35,736 nt of DNA. Origin: Bacillota bacterium. Lineage in GTDB: Bacteria; Bacillota; Clostridia; SK-Y3. Location of the stretch: the NCBI GenBank assembly GCA_022360955.1, contig JAKSBV010000231.1:1-35736 (forward strand). Direction: 5' to 3'. The notes under the pieces were generated by a model. That model searched no databases, was not told the DNA's origin, and worked only from the letters and a program-made list of their open reading frames with translations. This document shows, piece after piece, positions 6,221 to 30,391 of the stretch (the first letter of the stretch is position 1; each line of letters starts with the position of its first letter). The translations under genes were made by a program, and so were the position numbers.

Positions 6221-6367
6221 GTTTACTATCCGGATACTTTTGAAATCGCCGTCCGGATATGCAAGAATATGCACATTACCCCCATTGAGGAATTATTCGA
6301 CATATACATTCAAAATCCTTCCGTTATATGTAGTTTTTCAACCCTTATTATAGATACCCAACTTTAA
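6221..6367 (+). pseudogene. possible remnant of an XRE-type HTH regulator C-terminus
   Basis: The + frame encodes a stretch (TFEIAVRICKNMHITPIEEL around 6235-6294) resembling the last helix pair of Cro/C1-type regulators, where a pattern like 'P.lelAl.IckvLnvsieeLF' is usual. The HTH itself is missing and the frame runs into the palindromic repeat that starts at 6353. This fits a decayed divergent regulator of the MFS gene, but the match is short. Confidence 0.3.
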
Positions 6368-6448
6368 AATTGAATTTATATTTACACAAAAAACGCAGAA
6401 TCACCGTTGTTTGTGTAAATAATATTTTTAGGTTTAAAGTTGGTTATC
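6353..6448. repeat. 96-bp palindromic repeat element, copy A
   Basis: Outer arms are 16 bp (GATACCCAACTTTAAA at 6353-6368 against TTTAAAGTTGGTTATC at 6433-6448, one mismatch when folded). An inner stem pairs TTTACACAAA with TTTGTGTAAA. The loop centre has a conserved CGCAGAATCACCGTTG block. Near-identical copies lie at 9532-9628 and 30210-30306, and a diverged copy at 23506-23597. It has no ORF. It may be a MITE-like or REP-like element, or a structured RNA. Confidence 0.85.
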
Positions 6449-6637
6449 TTTACTGATATAATTTTTTATCTTTTGATATAGCTTGTTTTGGCTCATCAGC
6501 TCCTTAACATACAAAGGCCCAGTCCGGGAAAAATATCACTGCCAACATCTTTCTCCCAATCTGAGCCTTGAATCCTTAACCGCCTTATTTACTTTTGCTT
6601 TGATAACACGCCACCCCTTGCGCCCACTCCCTGCCAA
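6449..6637. other. spacer downstream of sigG
   Basis: No gene can be supported. The minus strand here is more GC-rich than normal spacers and has short coding-like stretches (for example an RVIKAKVNKAVKDSR peptide in one frame) without a start or RBS. No convincing terminator was found right after sigG. Confidence 0.3.
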
Positions 6638-8574: not shown

Positions 8575-9483
8575 TCAGGAAATAATTTCAGGATGCAGCA
8601 AAGCCCTATATTCCTCACTCTTAGAAAGTTTTTTATTATAAATGCCAATAATGATATCCTTTAAATCTTTTTTTTCCGGCCCTTCCAGTATCTCAATTTC
8701 GTCGGGTTTGAATCCTATCAGCATACCGTTTTCTTTGCCAAGAGAGGAAAAGGGAATCAGTCTGAATCTGGACACCCAATCGGAATTGGACATAATACTG
8801 GTAATCAAGCCTAAATCGTTTTCGCTGCATTCATTGAAAATTTTTTGAATTTCCTGTGGCAGCAGCCCTTTGATCGCTTGAAATTCCACAATAATGACCG
8901 GGAGATTGGATATAGGCTCATATAGAGAATTTCCGGTATCTAAAAGGGCATTAATGCATATACTTTTATTATCAAACATTATTGAAAGCGGTATGTACAA
9001 ATTTTCTTTATTAATTTTGATGCCGATCAGCTTCCAGGTAATGCTGATAACGATATATGCGGTGACACAAGATAAAAGCAATGTCTTCCAAGGCAAATTA
9101 AAATAGATAACCCCATTGCTCAAAATAGCACCTATTGAGGCCCCGATATTGGTAAAGTAAAATAATCCTAAAGCGGCACCTCCAAAAGTAAAAGAAACGA
9201 TATAAAATATACCTAAAACCTTTAAAAATGCTCTCACCTTTTCTATATTATAGGTAATGGCTATTAATAGCATTGAAAAGAGCAGTTTCGCAATAAGGGT
9301 ATAATATATTTGAAAAGCCGGAAAAAACATAACAACGGCATAAACTGCGCCTACACAAGCGCCAATGAATAATCTTACAACGGATGTTTTGGTCCTTGAA
9401 ATCTTGCTTGTCGTCCACAATAAAATATAATTTATCAATAAATTTACCGTAAACAAGACATCAATGTATATAACCGGCTTCAC
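8575..9483 (-). CDS. spoIIGA: SpoIIGA, membrane aspartic protease that processes pro-SigmaE
   Basis: 302 residues. The first ~150 residues hold five or so membrane helices starting with the family-typical VIYIDVLFTVNLLINY. The C-terminal half is the cytoplasmic protease domain with the catalytic LLDTGNSL motif (Asp182-Thr-Gly184). The protease is activated across the septal membrane by a forespore signal (SpoIIR in the family) and cleaves pro-SigmaE, encoded next in the operon. Start GTG 9483 has a GGGGG site at 9491-9495. The upstream 770-base spacer carries two repeat elements, with the candidate promoter only at its far end. Confidence 0.96.
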   Translation of the reverse strand: MKPVIYIDVLFTVNLLINYILLWTTSKISRTKTSVVRLFIGACVGAVYAVVMFFPAFQIYYTLIAKLLFSMLLIAITYNIEKVRAFLKVLGIFYIVSFTFGGAALGLFYFTNIGASIGAILSNGVIYFNLPWKTLLLSCVTAYIVISITWKLIGIKINKENLYIPLSIMFDNKSICINALLDTGNSLYEPISNLPVIIVEFQAIKGLLPQEIQKIFNECSENDLGLITSIMSNSDWVSRFRLIPFSSLGKENGMLIGFKPDEIEILEGPEKKDLKDIIIGIYNKKLSKSEEYRALLHPEIIS

Positions 9484-9531
9484 ATTTATGCCCCCAATTT
9501 TTTAGTTATTAGTTCACGGTCCGCAATGATA

Positions 9532-9628
9532 GATGCCTAACTTTAAAATGGAATGTATATTTATACAAAAAACGTAGAATCATCGTTATTTGTGTAAATA
9601 AATATTTTTGGGTCTAAAGTTGGTTATC
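9532..9628. repeat. 96/97-bp palindromic repeat element, copy B
   Basis: Same element as 6353-6448. Arms are GATGCCTAACTTTAAA and TCTAAAGTTGGTTATC, and the inner stem has compensatory-looking changes (TTTATACAAA against TTTGTGTAAA, partly via G-U). It lies 48 bases upstream of the spoIIGA start, so it would be in the spoIIG leader RNA. Confidence 0.85.
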
Positions 9629-9655
9629 TTCAAGAGCCTTTTTACAAACTTTTTT

Positions 9656-9682
9656 GTGAACCGTCAACAGTGAACTATAACC
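9656..9682. repeat. heptamer tandem repeat array
   Basis: Consecutive 7-base units GTGAACC, GTCAACA, GTGAACT and the start of a fourth (ATAACC). Two further units, TTAGTTA and TTAGTTC, are at 9502-9515 on the other side of the palindromic element. They belong to the same class as the arrays at 14852, 21141, 27337, 28774 and 32608, which have different unit sequences. Confidence 0.5.
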
Positions 9683-9711
9683 TTATTTTTTATGCTATAG
9701 ATAGCGCTACA

Positions 9712-9931
9712 CTATAGATAATAAACACTAGAACTAGAAATATAATCGTATGGAAGTAACCTTATGAAGAATCTTAGAGATTGTTTGCGCAGCGTAGGAA
9801 AAGCTGCTTCAACTGTTTGAGCGCAGCGAGTTTTGGAGCCCGCCCGAAGCAAGCAATACAAGCTCTTAGATTCGGAATGCCTGTTGCTGGAGTACGATTA
9901 TATTTCCAACTTTACTGTTTATTATCTATAG
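9712..9931. mobile_element. 220-bp element with 39-bp terminal inverted repeats (MITE-like)
   Basis: The ends 9712-9750 and 9893-9931 are inverted repeats over 39 bases, both reading inward from CTATAGATAATAAACA and ending in GAAATATAATCGTA, with a few mismatches in the middle. A second nested pair (GAATCTTAGAG near 9768 against CTCTTAGATTC near 9863) extends the fold. The GC-rich core includes GAGCGCAGCGAG. There is no ORF, so any movement would need an enzyme from elsewhere. A partial copy of the right half is at 30140-30209. A large structured RNA is an alternative. Confidence 0.75.
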
Positions 9932-10060
9932 AGATAGAAATATAATTCAAATGCTTTTTGGCGTTTAGTCTATCTTACTATTATTCATTAAATAATCGAT
10001 GTATGATAGAATGATATAGGATCATCTATCTTTTTGAACCTTGAACGATTAGCTCTTTCT

Positions 10061-10093
10061 ATTATAACTTATATATTATTTAAAATTTGTCAG
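10061..10093 (-). promoter_or_regulatory. candidate spoIIG promoter with unusually long spacer
   Basis: On the minus strand CTGACA (10093-10088) and TATAAT (10066-10061) are separated by 21 bases. The B. subtilis spoIIG promoter is known for a 22-base spacer and Spo0A dependence. TTCTGACA resembles the Spo0A box TTCGACA with one extra base. It lies directly downstream of the ftsZ terminator, so it could start the spoIIGA-sigE unit, leaving a ~580-base leader that contains both repeat elements. Confidence 0.4.
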
Positions 10094-10110
10094 AAATTGT
10101 TACTCGTCTC

Positions 10111-10167
10111 AAAAAAAATAACGACATGAGTTGATAAATAGGGCTCCCTATTTATCAACTCATGTCG
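10111..10167 (-). terminator. strong Rho-independent terminator of ftsZ / the dcw operon
   Basis: A perfect 22-bp inverted repeat (CGACATGAGTTGATAAATAG at 10122 onward and its complement to 10167, with a 2-base centre) is followed on the minus strand by TTATTTTTTTT. It lies 88 bases after the ftsZ stop and marks the end of the dcw transcript. Confidence 0.9.
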
Positions 10168-10254
10168 CTGTTCGAAATCTATAAATCTGGTTAAGGAAAA
10201 TTATTCCAATCATTTCCTTTAACTCAATAAAATGCACCCCGCTGTCCGACAGGT

Positions 10255-11325
10255 TTACTTATTTCGATTTCTCCTTAAAAAAGTGGGAATATCGATATCA
10301 TCGGATTCTTGCGTTTTAACCGGATTTGTTTCATTCACGGTATCCAAGACGGGTTTTTGCTTACTATAAGGTTTTTTATCAAAACCCGTAGCAATAACTG
10401 TAATCAGTAATTCGTCATTAAGGCTCTCGTCAATCACGGCCCCAAAAATAATATTTGCATCGGGATCGGCGGATTTTTGGACCAGCTCTGCCGCCGCATT
10501 TACTTCAAACAATCCGAGATCCTTTCCGCCGGTAATATTTAATAATACGCCTCTTGCTCCGTCTATAGAAGTCTCCAACAGCGGGCTTTGAATGGCTTGC
10601 TTCGCGGCTTCTTCAGCACGGTTATCACCGCTTCCTCTTCCGATGCCCATATGTGCAAATCCTGTGTCCAGCATAATCGTTTTAACATCGGCAAAATCCA
10701 GATTGACCAGACCAGGCACTGCAATGAGGTCGGATATGCCCTGTACGCCCTGCCTTAAAACATCATCCGCAATTTTAAATGCTTCCATGATGGACGTCTT
10801 CTTTTCGGCAATCTGCAACAGACGATCATTGGGAATGGTGACCAACGTATCCACACATTCTTTCAAGTTTGTAACACCTTGTTCTGCGTGAACCATCCGC
10901 TTTCGACCTTCAAAAGTAAATGGCTTGGTTACAACACCTACCGTCAGGATACCCATCTCTTTCGCAATCGAGGCAACAATAGGCGCAGCACCGGTTCCCG
11001 TACCGCCGCCCATGCCGGCCGTCACAAAAACCATATCCGCTCCTTTGATGGCCTGGGCAATTTCTTCTCGGCTTTCTTCCGCCGCCTTTTGTCCTATTTC
11101 AGGATTTGCCCCTGCACCCAATCCGCGAGTAAGTTTATCCCCGACTTGTATTTTTTGAGTGGCTTTCGATAAAAGGAGCGCTTGCTTGTCCGTATTGATA
11201 GAAATAAATTCAACACCTTTTAATCCGGCTACAATCATTCTATTGACTGCATTATTGCCTCCCCCGCCAACACCAATTACCTTAATCTGTGCAAAATTGT
11301 CCATATCTGTTTCAAATTCTAACAT
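10255..11325 (-). CDS. ftsZ: cell division GTPase FtsZ
   Basis: About 356 residues. It polymerises into the Z-ring. The tubulin signature GGGTGTG is at about residues 106-112, preceded by the N-terminal [13 protein letters not shown] nucleotide-binding loop; the T7 synergy loop (NLDFADVK) is intact. The C-terminal tail ends with the conserved peptide [12 protein letters not shown], which normally binds FtsA, SepF or similar membrane tethers. ATG 11325 is preferred over GTG 11328; GGGGG lies 9 bases upstream. ftsA, usually immediately upstream, is missing: only 81 bases separate sbp and ftsZ. A strong terminator follows. Confidence 0.98.
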
Positions 11326-11409
11326 CACAAACAGCCCCCTTTATTTCATTTATAACTATCTTTATAGCATGATGTTATCATTCATGTTACATTCTAAGAT
11401 TTTCTCTCA

Positions 11410-21182: not shown

Positions 21183-23366
21183 CTAGTCGCCTTCCATCAG
21201 CCTAAACTCTACATTGACCACCGTACCGGGAGAGACTTCGCTGCCTGCTGCCGGGTGTTGATTCATAGCCGCTCCGAATCCCGTTATTTTTATATTCAAA
21301 TCCGCATCCGTCAAGATTTTATTCGCATCCAGCGGCGACTTGTTCGTCACATCGGGTACCACAACCTTTGTGATAAGCTTTGTGTTTTCCGTATATAAAA
21401 TAACCATGGATTTTTCAGGCAGTTTTGCGCCGGGTTTGGGAAGCTGGTCAATAATAGTATTACCCGAACCCTTCACTTTATATTTCAAATTAACCTGTTT
21501 AAGTGCTTTCTCCGCATCCGGTATCTCCATATTTCTAGCTTCCGGTACGGGGACATCAATCAGCACGTCATCTTCTTCGGTAAATCGCTGTTCTACTCCA
21601 ACATAGCGCAATGTCTCTTCAAAAATCTTTCCGACTACAGGCGCTGCGATCACACCGCCGTAATAATAGGGATATCCCCTCGTGGGCTCGTCAAGCATCA
21701 CAAGTACCGCTATTTGCGGGTCGTCGGCAGGTGCAAATCCGATAAAGGAAGCAATGTATTTTTTATCTTCTCTTGGAACTTTTTCGGAGGTTCCTGTCTT
21801 GCCGGCTATTCTATACCCTTTGACGTTTGCATTTCTTCCCGTACCTTCCGAAACAACACTCTCCAAAATACCTCTAAGCGTATCGGAGGTCTCCTGTGAA
21901 ATAACCTGCCTCACCATCTCCGGTTCAAACGTTTGAATCACATTATCTTCTTGGTCCGTAAGCTGCTGCACAAGCCTGGGTTTTACTAGCTTTCCGCCAT
22001 TTGCCACAGCGCTGACGGCACAAAGCATCTGCAACGGCGTAACCGTAAAGCCTTGCCCGAAAGATGCCGTCGCCAGTTCCAGCTCAGGAAACTTGTTTGC
22101 CGAATGAAAGAGGCCTACGGCTTCACCAGGCAATGCCAAACCGGTCTTTTCACGCAAGCCAAAAGCATTTATATAGCGATAGAACATATCCGATCCTATC
22201 TTAAGCCCTACATTAATAAACACGGGATTACAGGAGTTCTGCACCCCCTGCACAAATGTCTGGGCACCATGGGGATTATCATGCCGGTGGCATTTAATCT
22301 TTTTGCCACTAACCATTACATACCCTGTACACGTAAAGGGGTCCTCCGGCTCTACCACGTTTTCCTCCAGACCGATTGCCGAAGTAATGATTTTAAAAGT
22401 AGATCCGGGCTCATATGTATCTACAACCGCTTTATTACGCCACATTTTATTTAATTCTTCCGTATATCTTTTTTTTAATTCGTCTCCGGAAAGCCTTTCC
22501 AATTCACTGCGTACCGCTTCATTCTCTATCTTAAAAGGATTATTCAAATCAAAATCGGGCTTTACGGCCATTGCCAGAATATCACCGGTGTTGACATCCA
22601 TTACGATGGCGGCCCCGCCATTGTTGATCTTATTTTCTATCACAGCCGTCTCCAGATGCTTTTCCACAATATGCTGGATAACTTCATCAATCGTCAATAT
22701 GACATTCGCACCGTCTTCAGGATTTACATATTTTTCATGTCTATAGGGCATCTCCGTTCCTACGGCATTTTTAGCCGAAACAATTCTGCCGGGCAATCCT
22801 TTTAAATATTTATCAAACATTATTTCTATACCGTTCAGCCCTTGATTGTCGTCCCCGATAAAGCCTATCACATGGGAAGCAAAATTCCCGTAGGGATAGT
22901 ACCTCTTCGAATCTTCAACCAAATTTATACCTTTAATCTTTTCATCGATTATATATTGCCTGACTTGTTGGGCCTGTTCGTTTTCTATCCTTCGTTTAAC
23001 AAGTTCATAGGAACTGTCGCGGGTAATTTTTTCAAAGACCTTCTCATATTCCATGTCTAAAATCTTTGACAGCGTTGCAGCAATCTCTCCTGCATTTTTT
23101 GCCTGCTTGATTTCATTAGGGGTGGCAGTCACCGTCTCTACCGAAGCGCTCACTGCAAGAGGCTTTCCGTTACGGTCATAAATAGTACCCCTTTTGGAAT
23201 AGATCATCTTATCCCTCGTTTGCTGTTCTATGGCTTCTTTTTGGAGCCTTTCCCCATCATGTATCTGCAGCCATCCCGTCCTTGCGATTAATGCCATACA
23301 TATGAGTGTGAAAGCCACAAGCAGAAAAAGTATCCTCTTCTTAATCCTCAAATTTGGCGAAGCCAA
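21183..23366 (-). CDS. spoVD: class B penicillin-binding protein, SpoVD/PBP2B type, with two PASTA domains
   Basis: About 727 residues. One N-terminal membrane anchor, the PBP dimerisation domain (YSKRGTIYDRNGKPLAVSA), and the transpeptidase domain with all three active-site motifs: STFK (Ser322 to Lys325 from this start), SCN (378-380) and KTG (523-525). Two C-terminal PASTA repeats follow (starting near IPDAEKAL and VVPDVTN). It cross-links septal or spore-cortex peptidoglycan with the SEDS partner. Start: TTG 23366 has GGGTGG seven bases upstream; the earlier TTG 23384 has no site. Bacillus SpoVD has one PASTA and PBP2B two. As the only such PBP gene in the cluster it may serve both division and sporulation. 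Confidence 0.93.
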   Translation of the reverse strand: MASPNLRIKKRILFLLVAFTLICMALIARTGWLQIHDGERLQKEAIEQQTRDKMIYSKRGTIYDRNGKPLAVSASVETVTATPNEIKQAKNAGEIAATLSKILDMEYEKVFEKITRDSSYELVKRRIENEQAQQVRQYIIDEKIKGINLVEDSKRYYPYGNFASHVIGFIGDDNQGLNGIEIMFDKYLKGLPGRIVSAKNAVGTEMPYRHEKYVNPEDGANVILTIDEVIQHIVEKHLETAVIENKINNGGAAIVMDVNTGDILAMAVKPDFDLNNPFKIENEAVRSELERLSGDELKKRYTEELNKMWRNKAVVDTYEPGSTFKIITSAIGLEENVVEPEDPFTCTGYVMVSGKKIKCHRHDNPHGAQTFVQGVQNSCNPVFINVGLKIGSDMFYRYINAFGLREKTGLALPGEAVGLFHSANKFPELELATASFGQGFTVTPLQMLCAVSAVANGGKLVKPRLVQQLTDQEDNVIQTFEPEMVRQVISQETSDTLRGILESVVSEGTGRNANVKGYRIAGKTGTSEKVPREDKKYIASFIGFAPADDPQIAVLVMLDEPTRGYPYYYGGVIAAPVVGKIFEETLRYVGVEQRFTEEDDVLIDVPVPEARNMEIPDAEKALKQVNLKYKVKGSGNTIIDQLPKPGAKLPEKSMVILYTENTKLITKVVVPDVTNKSPLDANKILTDADLNIKITGFGAAMNQHPAAGSEVSPGTVVNVEFRLMEGD

Positions 23367-23505
23367 GACAAAACCACCCTTCAAATCGTTCGGAGCTTGG
23401 GACCCGGGGAATTGAAGCTATTTACAATATCACCGCAATCTATTGAATATAGAATATTAAACATATAGGGACATACCCGGATAATGTCCCTAATGCTCTT
23501 TTACA

Positions 23506-23597
23506 AATACCCACCTTTAAAATTCAAGTTAATTTACACAAAAAATACAGCGCCATCGTTGTTTGCTCAAATGTATTCAGGTACAAAGTGCGCTATC
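23506..23597. repeat. 96-bp palindromic element, diverged copy C
   Basis: Arms AATACCCACCTTTAAA and TACAAAGTGCGCTATC, with the central CGCCATCGTTGTTTG block preserved. It is more diverged than the copies at 6353, 9532 and 30210, so probably older. Confidence 0.65.
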
Positions 23598-23851
23598 TTT
23601 ATCCAATCCATAACCGATCAAAAGATGTTTCAAAAAATAGAATGTATAGATCATTGGGCGTAAGTAAAATGAATCATGTATTTTTTAAAATAACCTTGTT
23701 CAAATGTATTTAGGTGTAAAGTACGCTATCTCTATTCAATCCATAACCGATCAAAAGGCATTTCAAAAAGCAGCATTGATGCAGTTCATTTTACATAGTG
23801 TGTTTTTTAACGCCCTTGTGTAAATGTATCTCTAGGTTGCAGCCGGTTATC
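23561..23851. repeat. tandem reiteration of the palindromic element's right half
   Basis: The right half of the element (core CAAATGTATTnAGGT...CTATC) recurs three times, at 23568, 23701 and 23821, with periods of 133 and 120 bases. Between units the sequence CCATAACCGATCAAAAG is shared by the first two. It fills most of the 600-base gap between ftsL and spoVD. A short hairpin (GGGACAT/ATGTCCC) is at 23468-23490. No gene can be supported in 23385-23966. Confidence 0.65.
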
Positions 23852-23966: not shown

Positions 23967-24464
23967 CTAGTACAAATATTCCAAAACATTACTGATTTTG
24001 CTCAGAAATAACGCAAAAGATCCTCGCTGCCCGGAAGCGTCACATTGTGTCTCTACAATTTCACTATAATCGTTTTTATTCAATGTCACGGGAACCATTT
24101 GATAGGTTTTAGGCTCACTCATCCCCAGTTCGTTTTTTGCAATATCCTCAATCTTGCTCAGATCTATAGAACTATCCAATCTTACTTGCATTTGTTCATT
24201 CGCTCTCTGTAATTGGTGCAAATCCCGTTTATAGCTGCTAACCGTATTACTCGCCTCCGTAATCGCTACATATCTCAGCATAATAAAAAATGTGACCGCA
24301 AAACATACTAAAATGCCTAAAATAGGTTTAAACTTGTTGACGTGTTTTGCAGGCGCCGGATTCTTTTTCTGTTTCCGCCGTTTTTTAGGGGGCTGCTGGG
24401 GAATATGATAATACTCTTGTTCTTGATACTTGTAAGCATTACTGCTATTATGCGCTCCCAACAT
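23967..24464 (-). CDS. ftsL: FtsL-like division protein
   Basis: About 165 residues. A long basic, Pro/Lys-rich cytoplasmic tail (QQPPKKRRKQKKNPAPAK) is followed by one membrane helix (~48-67) and an extracytoplasmic coiled coil (~75-110), then the GMSEPKTYQMVPV segment typical of FtsL/DivIC-like proteins. The family forms the FtsQ-FtsL-FtsB complex. ATG 24464 has GAGGTGA upstream and lies 19 bases after the rsmH stop; the longer frame from 24515 overlaps rsmH and lacks a site. Sequence conservation is low, as usual; the call rests on topology and position. Confidence 0.85.
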   Translation of the reverse strand: MLGAHNSSNAYKYQEQEYYHIPQQPPKKRRKQKKNPAPAKHVNKFKPILGILVCFAVTFFIMLRYVAITEASNTVSSYKRDLHQLQRANEQMQVRLDSSIDLSKIEDIAKNELGMSEPKTYQMVPVTLNKNDYSEIVETQCDASGQRGSFALFLSKISNVLEYLY

Positions 24465-24483
24465 TTGATTCACCTCATCCTTT

Positions 24484-25419
24484 TTATAGCTTTTCAATGA
24501 TTCGGAGTTTTGCACTTCTTGCCCTTGGGTTGTCTTTCAGCTCTTCGTCGGAAGATACAACCGGCTTTCTATTCATCACTTTAACAACAGGTTGTCCGCC
24601 ACACACGCACACCGGAAATTTCGGAGGACATTTGCACCCTCTGCCCAATTCTTTAAAGGTCTGCTTCACAATTCTATCTTCCAGAGAATGAAAAGTAATA
24701 ACCGCCATCCTGCCTCCGGTACGAAGCACATCGACAAAATCCTTTATCGCATTTTTAAGGATGCCCAACTCATTATTAACCTCAATGCGTATGGCTTGAA
24801 ACGTTCGTTTGGCCGGATGAGGACCCTCTCTTCTTGCGGCGGCAGGTATTGCCCTCTTTATAATTTCTACTAATTCTCCGGTCTTAGCAATAGTCTTAAC
24901 CTTTCGTTCTTCAATAATGAATTTGGCAATCCTCTTTGCCCACTTTTCTTCTCCATATTCATGTATAATGGCACTTATTTCATCTTCCGAATACTCATTC
25001 ACAACATGACAGGCCGTTAATGTATTTCTCCTATCCATTCTCATATCCAACGGTGCATCCTGTTGATAGCTGAATCCTCTTTCCCCCGCATCCAATTGAT
25101 GAGACGAAACACCCAGATCCATTACAACACCATCAATAGATACAATACTTAGTTGTTCAAGTATGTGTTTTATATTTTTAAAATTGTCATTTACCACTAT
25201 TACTTTGTCTTTAAATGCCTCTAATCTTTTCGTGGCTGCGTTAACAGCATTTATATCCTGATCAATGCCTAAAACTTTTCCATTGGCCCCCAACTTTTCA
25301 CAGATACCGTAAGTATGTCCGCCGCCGCCCAATGTGGCATCTACATAGATACCGTTTCCTTGAATCGCCAAAGCGTCAATCGATTCTTTGAAAAGCACGG
25401 ACACATGATGAAAATTCAT
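24484..25419 (-). CDS. rsmH: 16S rRNA (cytosine(1402)-N4)-methyltransferase RsmH
   Basis: 311 residues. It methylates C1402 of 16S rRNA using SAM. Conserved N-terminus [18 protein letters not shown]-binding [13 protein letters not shown], and [27 protein letters not shown] and [11 protein letters not shown] signatures are intact. AGAAGGTGAT upstream of the ATG is a strong RBS. It follows mraZ by 19 bases, the standard order at the head of the dcw cluster. Confidence 0.98.
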
Positions 25420-30139: not shown

Positions 30140-30209
30140 AGCAAGCAATACAATCTCTTAAATTCGGCATACTATTATATTTCTAACTTTACAATACACT
30201 ATCCTTATA
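30140..30209. repeat. truncated, diverged copy of the 220-bp element (right half)
   Basis: AGCAAGCAATACAA..CTCTTA, ATTCGG and TATTATATTTC.AACTTTAC align in order with 9850-9920 of the intact element, with a short internal deletion. It abuts palindromic copy at 30210 directly. Confidence 0.6.
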
Positions 30210-30306
30210 GATACCCAACTTTAAAATGGCATTTATATTTACACAAAAAAACGCAGAATCATCGTTGTTTGTGCAAATAGTATTTTAAAGTCTAAAGTTG
30301 GTTATC
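30210..30306. repeat. 96/97-bp palindromic repeat element, copy D
   Basis: Arms GATACCCAACTTTAAA (30210-30225) and TCTAAAGTTGGTTATC (30291-30306); inner stem TTTACACAAA against TTTGTGCAAA. It is very close to copies at 6353 and 9532. Confidence 0.85.
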
Positions 30307-30391
30307 CTTAGTCGCCTATATTCCATTATATACTATAACACATCTTTATATAGTTTGTGCCATTATTTCACTATTTTATGCATAAAATAAT

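Follow-up and report, generated by a model that had tools for sequence, protein, structure and literature searches.

A MITE between ftsZ and spoIIGA, probably one of a family that shares a fold-conserved hairpin core

The gap between ftsZ and spoIIGA in this Bacillota genome contains a palindromic element of 214 bp, which raises the question of what kind of element it is and what its interior represents. The preliminary description of the locus left a choice between a MITE and a large structured noncoding RNA. MITE interiors are usually taken as decayed sequence of an insertion sequence (IS). The results described below indicate that the element is likely a MITE whose core is shared with other MITEs, foreign to its parent and conserved in fold. 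The window, i.e. the whole stretch of DNA that was analysed, is 35,736 nucleotides long, and coordinates without a locus name refer to it. The features are as follows.

9713 to 9930, plus strand: MITE, the 214-bp element with its flanking TAs (paired ends; joined flanks restore the end of an older copy).
9715 to 9743, plus strand: left arm, an IS630-type end (TAGATAATAAACACTAGAACTAGAAATAT), supported by the genome matches of the end pattern and by an IS630 element with ends like those of MITE L012.
9744 to 9900, plus strand: hairpin core common to MITEs with unrelated ends (L001:1545-1701 in alignment A1; 159.8 bits with model R1; covariation).
9752 to 9754, plus strand: internal loop 1, GGA, facing GGA at 9889-9891 (a 3x3 purine loop; geometry by eye, and alignment).
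9766 to 9768, plus strand: internal loop 2, GAA (mostly GGA in other copies), facing GGA at 9874-9876 (by eye, and alignment).
9794 to 9796, plus strand: internal loop 3, GTA (GGA in some copies), facing GAA at 9846-9848 (by eye, and alignment).
9814 to 9834, plus strand: apex TGTTTGAGCGCAGCGAGTTTT, one of the most conserved stretches in the family (alignments).
9901 to 9928, plus strand: right arm, the left arm inverted (inverted-repeat pair; paired ends).
9696 to 9712, plus strand: outer piece of an older IS630-type MITE's left end, which the window element splits (end listed at 9696; joined with 9931-9953).
9931 to 9953, plus strand: continuation of the split older end (GAGATAGAAATATAATTC..; joined flanks; compare TATAGATAACGCACACTAGAGATAGAAATATA).
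30140 to 30199, plus strand: truncated copy, consisting of the core's right half and the right arm (repeat family D8).
9526 to 9632, plus strand: palindromic repeat of ~105 bp with IS630-like ends; copies at 6349-6452 and 30206-30310 (families D1, D4 and D7).

The element proper spans 9715-9928 (214 bp), with TA at 9713-9714 and at 9929-9930. It sits between two minus-strand genes, ftsZ (10255-11328) and spoIIGA (8575-9483), and begins 229 bp upstream of the called start of spoIIGA. Terminal inverted repeats of 39 bases had been claimed for it, and the segments 9712-9750 and 9893-9931 indeed match at 34 of 39 positions, a value reached in 3 of 20,000 random draws at equal spacing, which may include the element itself. 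The folding energy of a 261-nt stretch is -86.3 kcal/mol; shuffled versions average -54.4 (z -6.3), and none of 200 was as good. The nested inverted pair and the GAGCGCAGCGAG apex that had been pointed out are both real, and no ORF of at least 70 aa overlaps the element, in line with the earlier statement that it has none. The truncated right-half copy reported near 30140 was also recovered: 30140-30170 matches the right half of the element at 90% over 31 nt and is followed by the right arm, which identifies it as a truncated copy.

Three results favour the MITE reading: the copy number, an empty site within the window, and the presence in this genome of an IS630 element of the parent type. 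At least 40 places in the window's genome match the element (40 of 229 candidates were scored). The genome-wide search for the ends that the preliminary description had called for gave, at up to 3 mismatches, 277 occurrences of the end pattern in the genome (139 forward, 138 reverse), against 0 and 1 for the backward control. The element is dispersed and not single-copy; a single copy or a match to a known gene fragment had been named beforehand as the outcomes that would speak against it, and neither occurred. Among type i (IS630-type) end pairs, TA was present inside both ends in 33 of 34, while no longer direct repeat rose above shuffles at a consistent place. When 9696-9712 and 9931-9953 are joined with one TA, they give TATAGATAGCGCTACACTAGAGATAGAAATATAATTC, which is near TATAGATAACGCACACTAGAGATAGAAATATA elsewhere in the genome; since the joined flanks with a single TA restore the end of the older copy, the insert is 214 bp with one TA doubled. 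The size (within 50-500 bp), the lack of a transposase gene, the terminal inverted repeats, the dispersed copies and the target-site duplication are all those of a MITE. A match of the ends to those of an autonomous IS is provided by the IS630 element of locus L228, which agrees best with another MITE subfamily and is itself a broken copy. Taken alone, the window copy is an ordinary MITE.

Its surroundings are rich in repeats. The ~105-bp repeat has ends TATAGATACCCAACTTTAAAAT..AAAGTTGGTTATCTTTA and a remnant near 23510; the IS630 element in L228 has one copy directly beside it, and the truncated copy at 30140 is followed by another. At 10190-10242, just downstream of ftsZ, part of a type ii end (GGGTGCAT) is left, so that the ftsZ-spoIIGA gap, beside the sporulation sigma-E operon, is crowded with pieces of at least three repeat families. 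A strong terminator-like hairpin was seen downstream of ftsZ at 10121-10168 on the minus strand. Farther away, two 81-nt direct repeats (23563-23643 and 23696-23776; 84% alike, 133 bp apart) sit between the ORFs at 21183-23384 and 23967-24515. At two other loci only (L028 and L075), copies lie within the arms of apparent intrinsic terminators, as if inserted into the loop.

The IS630 element in the window's genome (L228:1344-2565) is 1222 bp long, with ends TAAAGATAACC.. and TATAGATAACC.., and contains the only DDE_3 match of that genome. A stop or frameshift divides its transposase into pieces of 200 and 152 aa, the HTH_33 and DDE_3 halves, which score 64.3 and 54.5 with NF033545 (IS630), below the cut-off of 100, as halves may be. 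The comparison with IS ends of the same genome, which had also been proposed, showed that the ends of this element match MITE L012 at 93.5% over 31 nt and at 86% over 29 nt. They are closest to the CCAAAA subfamily (L012, L014) and not to the exact window copy; because the latter falls in a sister subfamily (TAATAAAC replacing TAACCAAA), its link to this IS is by family and not by identity. DDE_Tnp_1 transposases were considered as parents and rejected, as none occurs in the window's genome. The arms would have been copied from the ends of an insertion sequence of the IS630 family, and an IS630 transposase would move the MITE into TA sites in trans; the TA duplication is observed and the transposition presumed. 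Since the L228 copy is broken and holds the sole DDE_3 match, the element may no longer be mobile in this genome.

The interior is a different matter. The core keeps a fixed fold, in which the apex is conserved and the three internal loops are small and rich in purines. Among 26 cores less than 94% alike, both-sided changes were found in 22 of 39 pairs and 96.4% of cells pair; the 22 covarying pairs were approached by 0 of 500 shuffles and by no slid version. When distant copies were included (39 copies), at least two Watson-Crick types occurred in 38 of the 39 pairs and at least three in 28, in an alignment that was fitted to the covariance model and therefore leans towards it. Stem covariation, which is looked for in structured RNAs, was thus found in the core. 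The apex TGTTTGAGCGNNAGCGAGTTT and the three 3x3 internal loops (often GGA facing GGA) are kept while the stems change. In the most distant group (L225, L226) the apex is kept and the GGA loops are lost, and in the distant copies L214, L220 and L222 the apex sequence is gone and the hairpin retained. In the model, the three purine loops would be closed and the TTTGAGC...GCGAGTTT apex exposed. Two apical forms of the core occur, a short one (220 bp elements) and a long one (263 bp), the latter also in relatives. The long form GGGGACATTCC..GACGAAGGAG..GTGTCCCC (L016:1629-1680 and others) makes a hairpin of its own, and many genome contigs end inside it.

Within the window's genome alone, three or more unrelated types of MITE ends enclose the core; cores were gathered from 5 of 6 searched genomes of the family (none in G002) and from public MAG contigs. 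In type ii carriers of the window's genome, it lies between GGGTGYAT ends. On comparing the window element with three type ii copies, it was found that homology is limited to 37-182 of 218, where the sequences are 72-74% identical. Type ii ends are flanked by 9-bp duplications (identity 0.66 vs 0.30 shuffled; 12 of 37 perfect), and the observed identity is lowered by several chance pairs retained in the set (e.g. L006, L021, L072, L108, L117, L144, L173). In the relative G003, an element of 1,636 bp that encodes a UPF0236 transposase and has type ii ends occurs in three copies (L235-L237); two of the three have 9-bp duplications (TGAGAGCTA and TTTTATACG), and one end is 77-87% identical to type ii MITEs over 39-44 nt. 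UPF0236 was absent from the window's own genome. We take UPF0236 (PF06782) to be an ISLre2-type transposase. ISLre2-type elements have 9-bp duplications and GGGTGCAT ends, as do the type ii carriers of the core, and the combination of 9-bp duplication and matching IS ends was found for type ii copies but not for the window copy, whose ends differ. The third end type (CNNNTTGTGC..) is present in the window's genome and in G003 (10 pairs, of which L202 is probably chance), with flanks bordered by TTAA in most copies. A putative 9-bp duplication at this end type looked likely by eye in single copies and scored 0.68, against 0.64 in shuffles.

A search of both parent ISs (IS630 and ISLre2-type) with nhmmer at E up to 100 did not find the core in either, and in every end type the borders of the core have nearly the same position. 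The ~155-nt hairpin core between the arms would accordingly count as foreign to the IS630 parent, and MITEs with ISLre2-type or third-type ends would have acquired it as well. The presence of the same core in MITEs of different end types makes it a modular passenger that outlives its carriers, and we infer its capture by several MITE families.

Within the class, the core model matches 38 of 391 genomes, spread over 12 families. In the phylum it matches 11 of 398, including the window's own, the other ten being outside the class; at most 7 candidates were scored per genome, and a few matches are near the 0.001 limit. A pattern scan of named genome contigs gave 16 stretches; the four MAGs that contain them are all labelled Clostridia or Clostridiales, and the scan of viral contigs gave 0. 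Carriage by phages or plasmids was rejected after blastn of one core (L048) against phage and plasmid collections gave no match. The suggested comparison with Rfam was run and no family matches the core. At gathering score, none was found in the window; with E up to 5, none falls on the core in L016, L046, L048 and L064; and over the cores of L205, L212, L216 and L225 only the MIR1437 miRNA model appeared, far below cut-off and, in L225, on both strands. A known Rfam family as the core was therefore rejected for want of a credible match (window gathering scan, and E-value scans at 9 loci). Two RNAs above cut-off are near, and not within, copies of the core, namely a TwoAYGGAY RNA (RF01731; L205:1175-1324, minus strand) and a fluoride riboswitch (RF01734; L064:1250-1309, minus strand). 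No description of the core was found among the titles and abstract openings that the literature searches gave.

What keeps such an interior in place? It may be neutral filler, captured by chance and spread between MITE families by recombination via shared inner segments, its pairing being kept by template-switch palindrome repair and not by function. Core-less MITEs of the window's genome do hold a second interior (B), exchanged between the same two end types (i and ii) and 71-86% alike across them over 50-176 nt in 12 comparisons. Shrunken copies of ~100 bp keep only the rim of the core and have nevertheless spread with 9-bp duplications, so that the whole core is unneeded for movement, and the many carriers without a core likewise mean that it is not required. 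The type i arms have no strand preference (G-U vs A-C 23 to 24; type ii arms leaning, 18 to 6). However, the loops and apex stay unpaired and conserved amid changing stems, although palindrome repair should erase such mismatches, and other families of the class contain the core at 50-150 bits. Neutral filler is thus a serious possibility, though not the probable one.

A non-coding RNA gene or leader that the MITE ends carry only incidentally is a somewhat doubtful account of the core. The strong covariation of the core stems agrees with such a gene, as does the strand bias of 55 related cores, in which the plus strand folds better in 55 of 55 and G-U outnumbers A-C by 65 to 14 (20 to 7 with a structure chosen without G-U). 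In a strand-neutral count of 31 cluster representatives, which kept a few badly aligned, gappy hairpins (L086, L205, L210), the figures were 62 vs 44, and 15 vs 13 outside the family; the model alignment gave 43 vs 21 and 19 vs 11. Strand-specific RNA selection, strong on related copies, is weak by the de-duplicated count and is therefore not claimed. The orientation of the copies also argues against an RNA gene: of 57 copies with two neighbours, 24 are opposed to both, 18 are in line with both and 15 are mixed (8 and 7), which leaves a cis-regulatory role with fixed orientation unsupported. None of these 57 lies in a long ORF by crude calling. The absence of plus-strand promoter-like sites in 9400-10300 and of an Rfam match likewise counts against it. 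A structured noncoding RNA, as put forward in the preliminary description, may still apply to the core, a conserved, covarying hairpin with mixed strand counts, copies in both orientations and no plus-strand promoter-like site nearby.

The similar borders in all end types would also suit a core that is a mobile unit entering the centre of palindromic MITEs, e.g. as folded single-stranded DNA, and its apex GCGNAGC/GCGNNAGC presumably resembles the very stable DNA mini-hairpins (GCGAAGC); yet the exact empty version was not found, the 80-83 bp type i elements retaining pieces of the core's rim, and no enzyme is linked to the core, which makes this quite improbable. A small protein gene can practically be dismissed, since the ATG frame of ~38 codons seen by eye in the window core is open over 38 codons in just 11 of 24 cores, is broken by 1-nt changes of apex length and has no third-position excess of change (0.178, 0.212, 0.207).

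The preferred reading is therefore that of a MITE with a shared, foreign and fold-conserved core. The family is more than an ordinary MITE in that its fold-conserved interior is common to MITEs of unrelated transposases and absent from Rfam. As one interior is conserved in fold across many families of the phylum, between unrelated transposon ends, the interior and not the transposase is the stable unit. The core would act as a folded single strand, more likely as RNA than as single-stranded DNA, and would help its carrier to persist or be tolerated; the chances that the folded strand has a function are about even. More tentatively, and on present evidence rather unlikely, it could be a phylum-wide selfish folded module (RNA or single-stranded DNA) that survives as cargo of MITEs and moves between carriers from unrelated DNA transposon families (IS630, ISLre2-type and one or more others). 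Such a module would parallel the IStron without being an intron, and its protein- or RNA-binding apex would aid the carrier. With these results, it can be tested whether small mobile hairpins have a function in their own right, and a covariance model is supplied for a repeat family missing from Rfam.

Bacterial MITEs are described, in the available part of a review, as small, IS-derived, mostly intergenic elements with terminal inverted repeats, direct repeats and stem-loop folds, QMITE2 of Coxiella being an example (PMC10969869). The window element is like them in its small size, inverted repeats, direct repeats, lack of a transposase and stem-loop. Their interior is described there as decayed transposon sequence, whereas the window core is absent from the parent IS found; and unlike the MITEs described in that part of the source, the core is conserved across families and common to MITEs of unrelated transposases (PMC10969869). 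With the IS630 family (NF033545 / DDE_3) the window element shares the TA target, and the IS of the same genome has type i ends; unlike that family, the element has no gene and its core is foreign to the IS. The carriers of the core are also like bcr1 and other stem-loop repeat families, some of them in Firmicutes, in being dispersed, structured and intergenic, a likeness by description and not by sequence comparison; for bcr1 and its kin, the available text describes no interior common to several IS types (PMC2267715). The nearest published idea, by analogy and as far as the available text of the source goes, may be the IStron, in which one intron class is joined to different IS families in Firmicutes (PMC4227781). 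IStrons carry a group I intron ribozyme, whereas the core has no Rfam intron or ribozyme match, group I introns included. The likeness lies in the arrangement, a folded component in separate unions with several DNA transposon families (PMC4227781).
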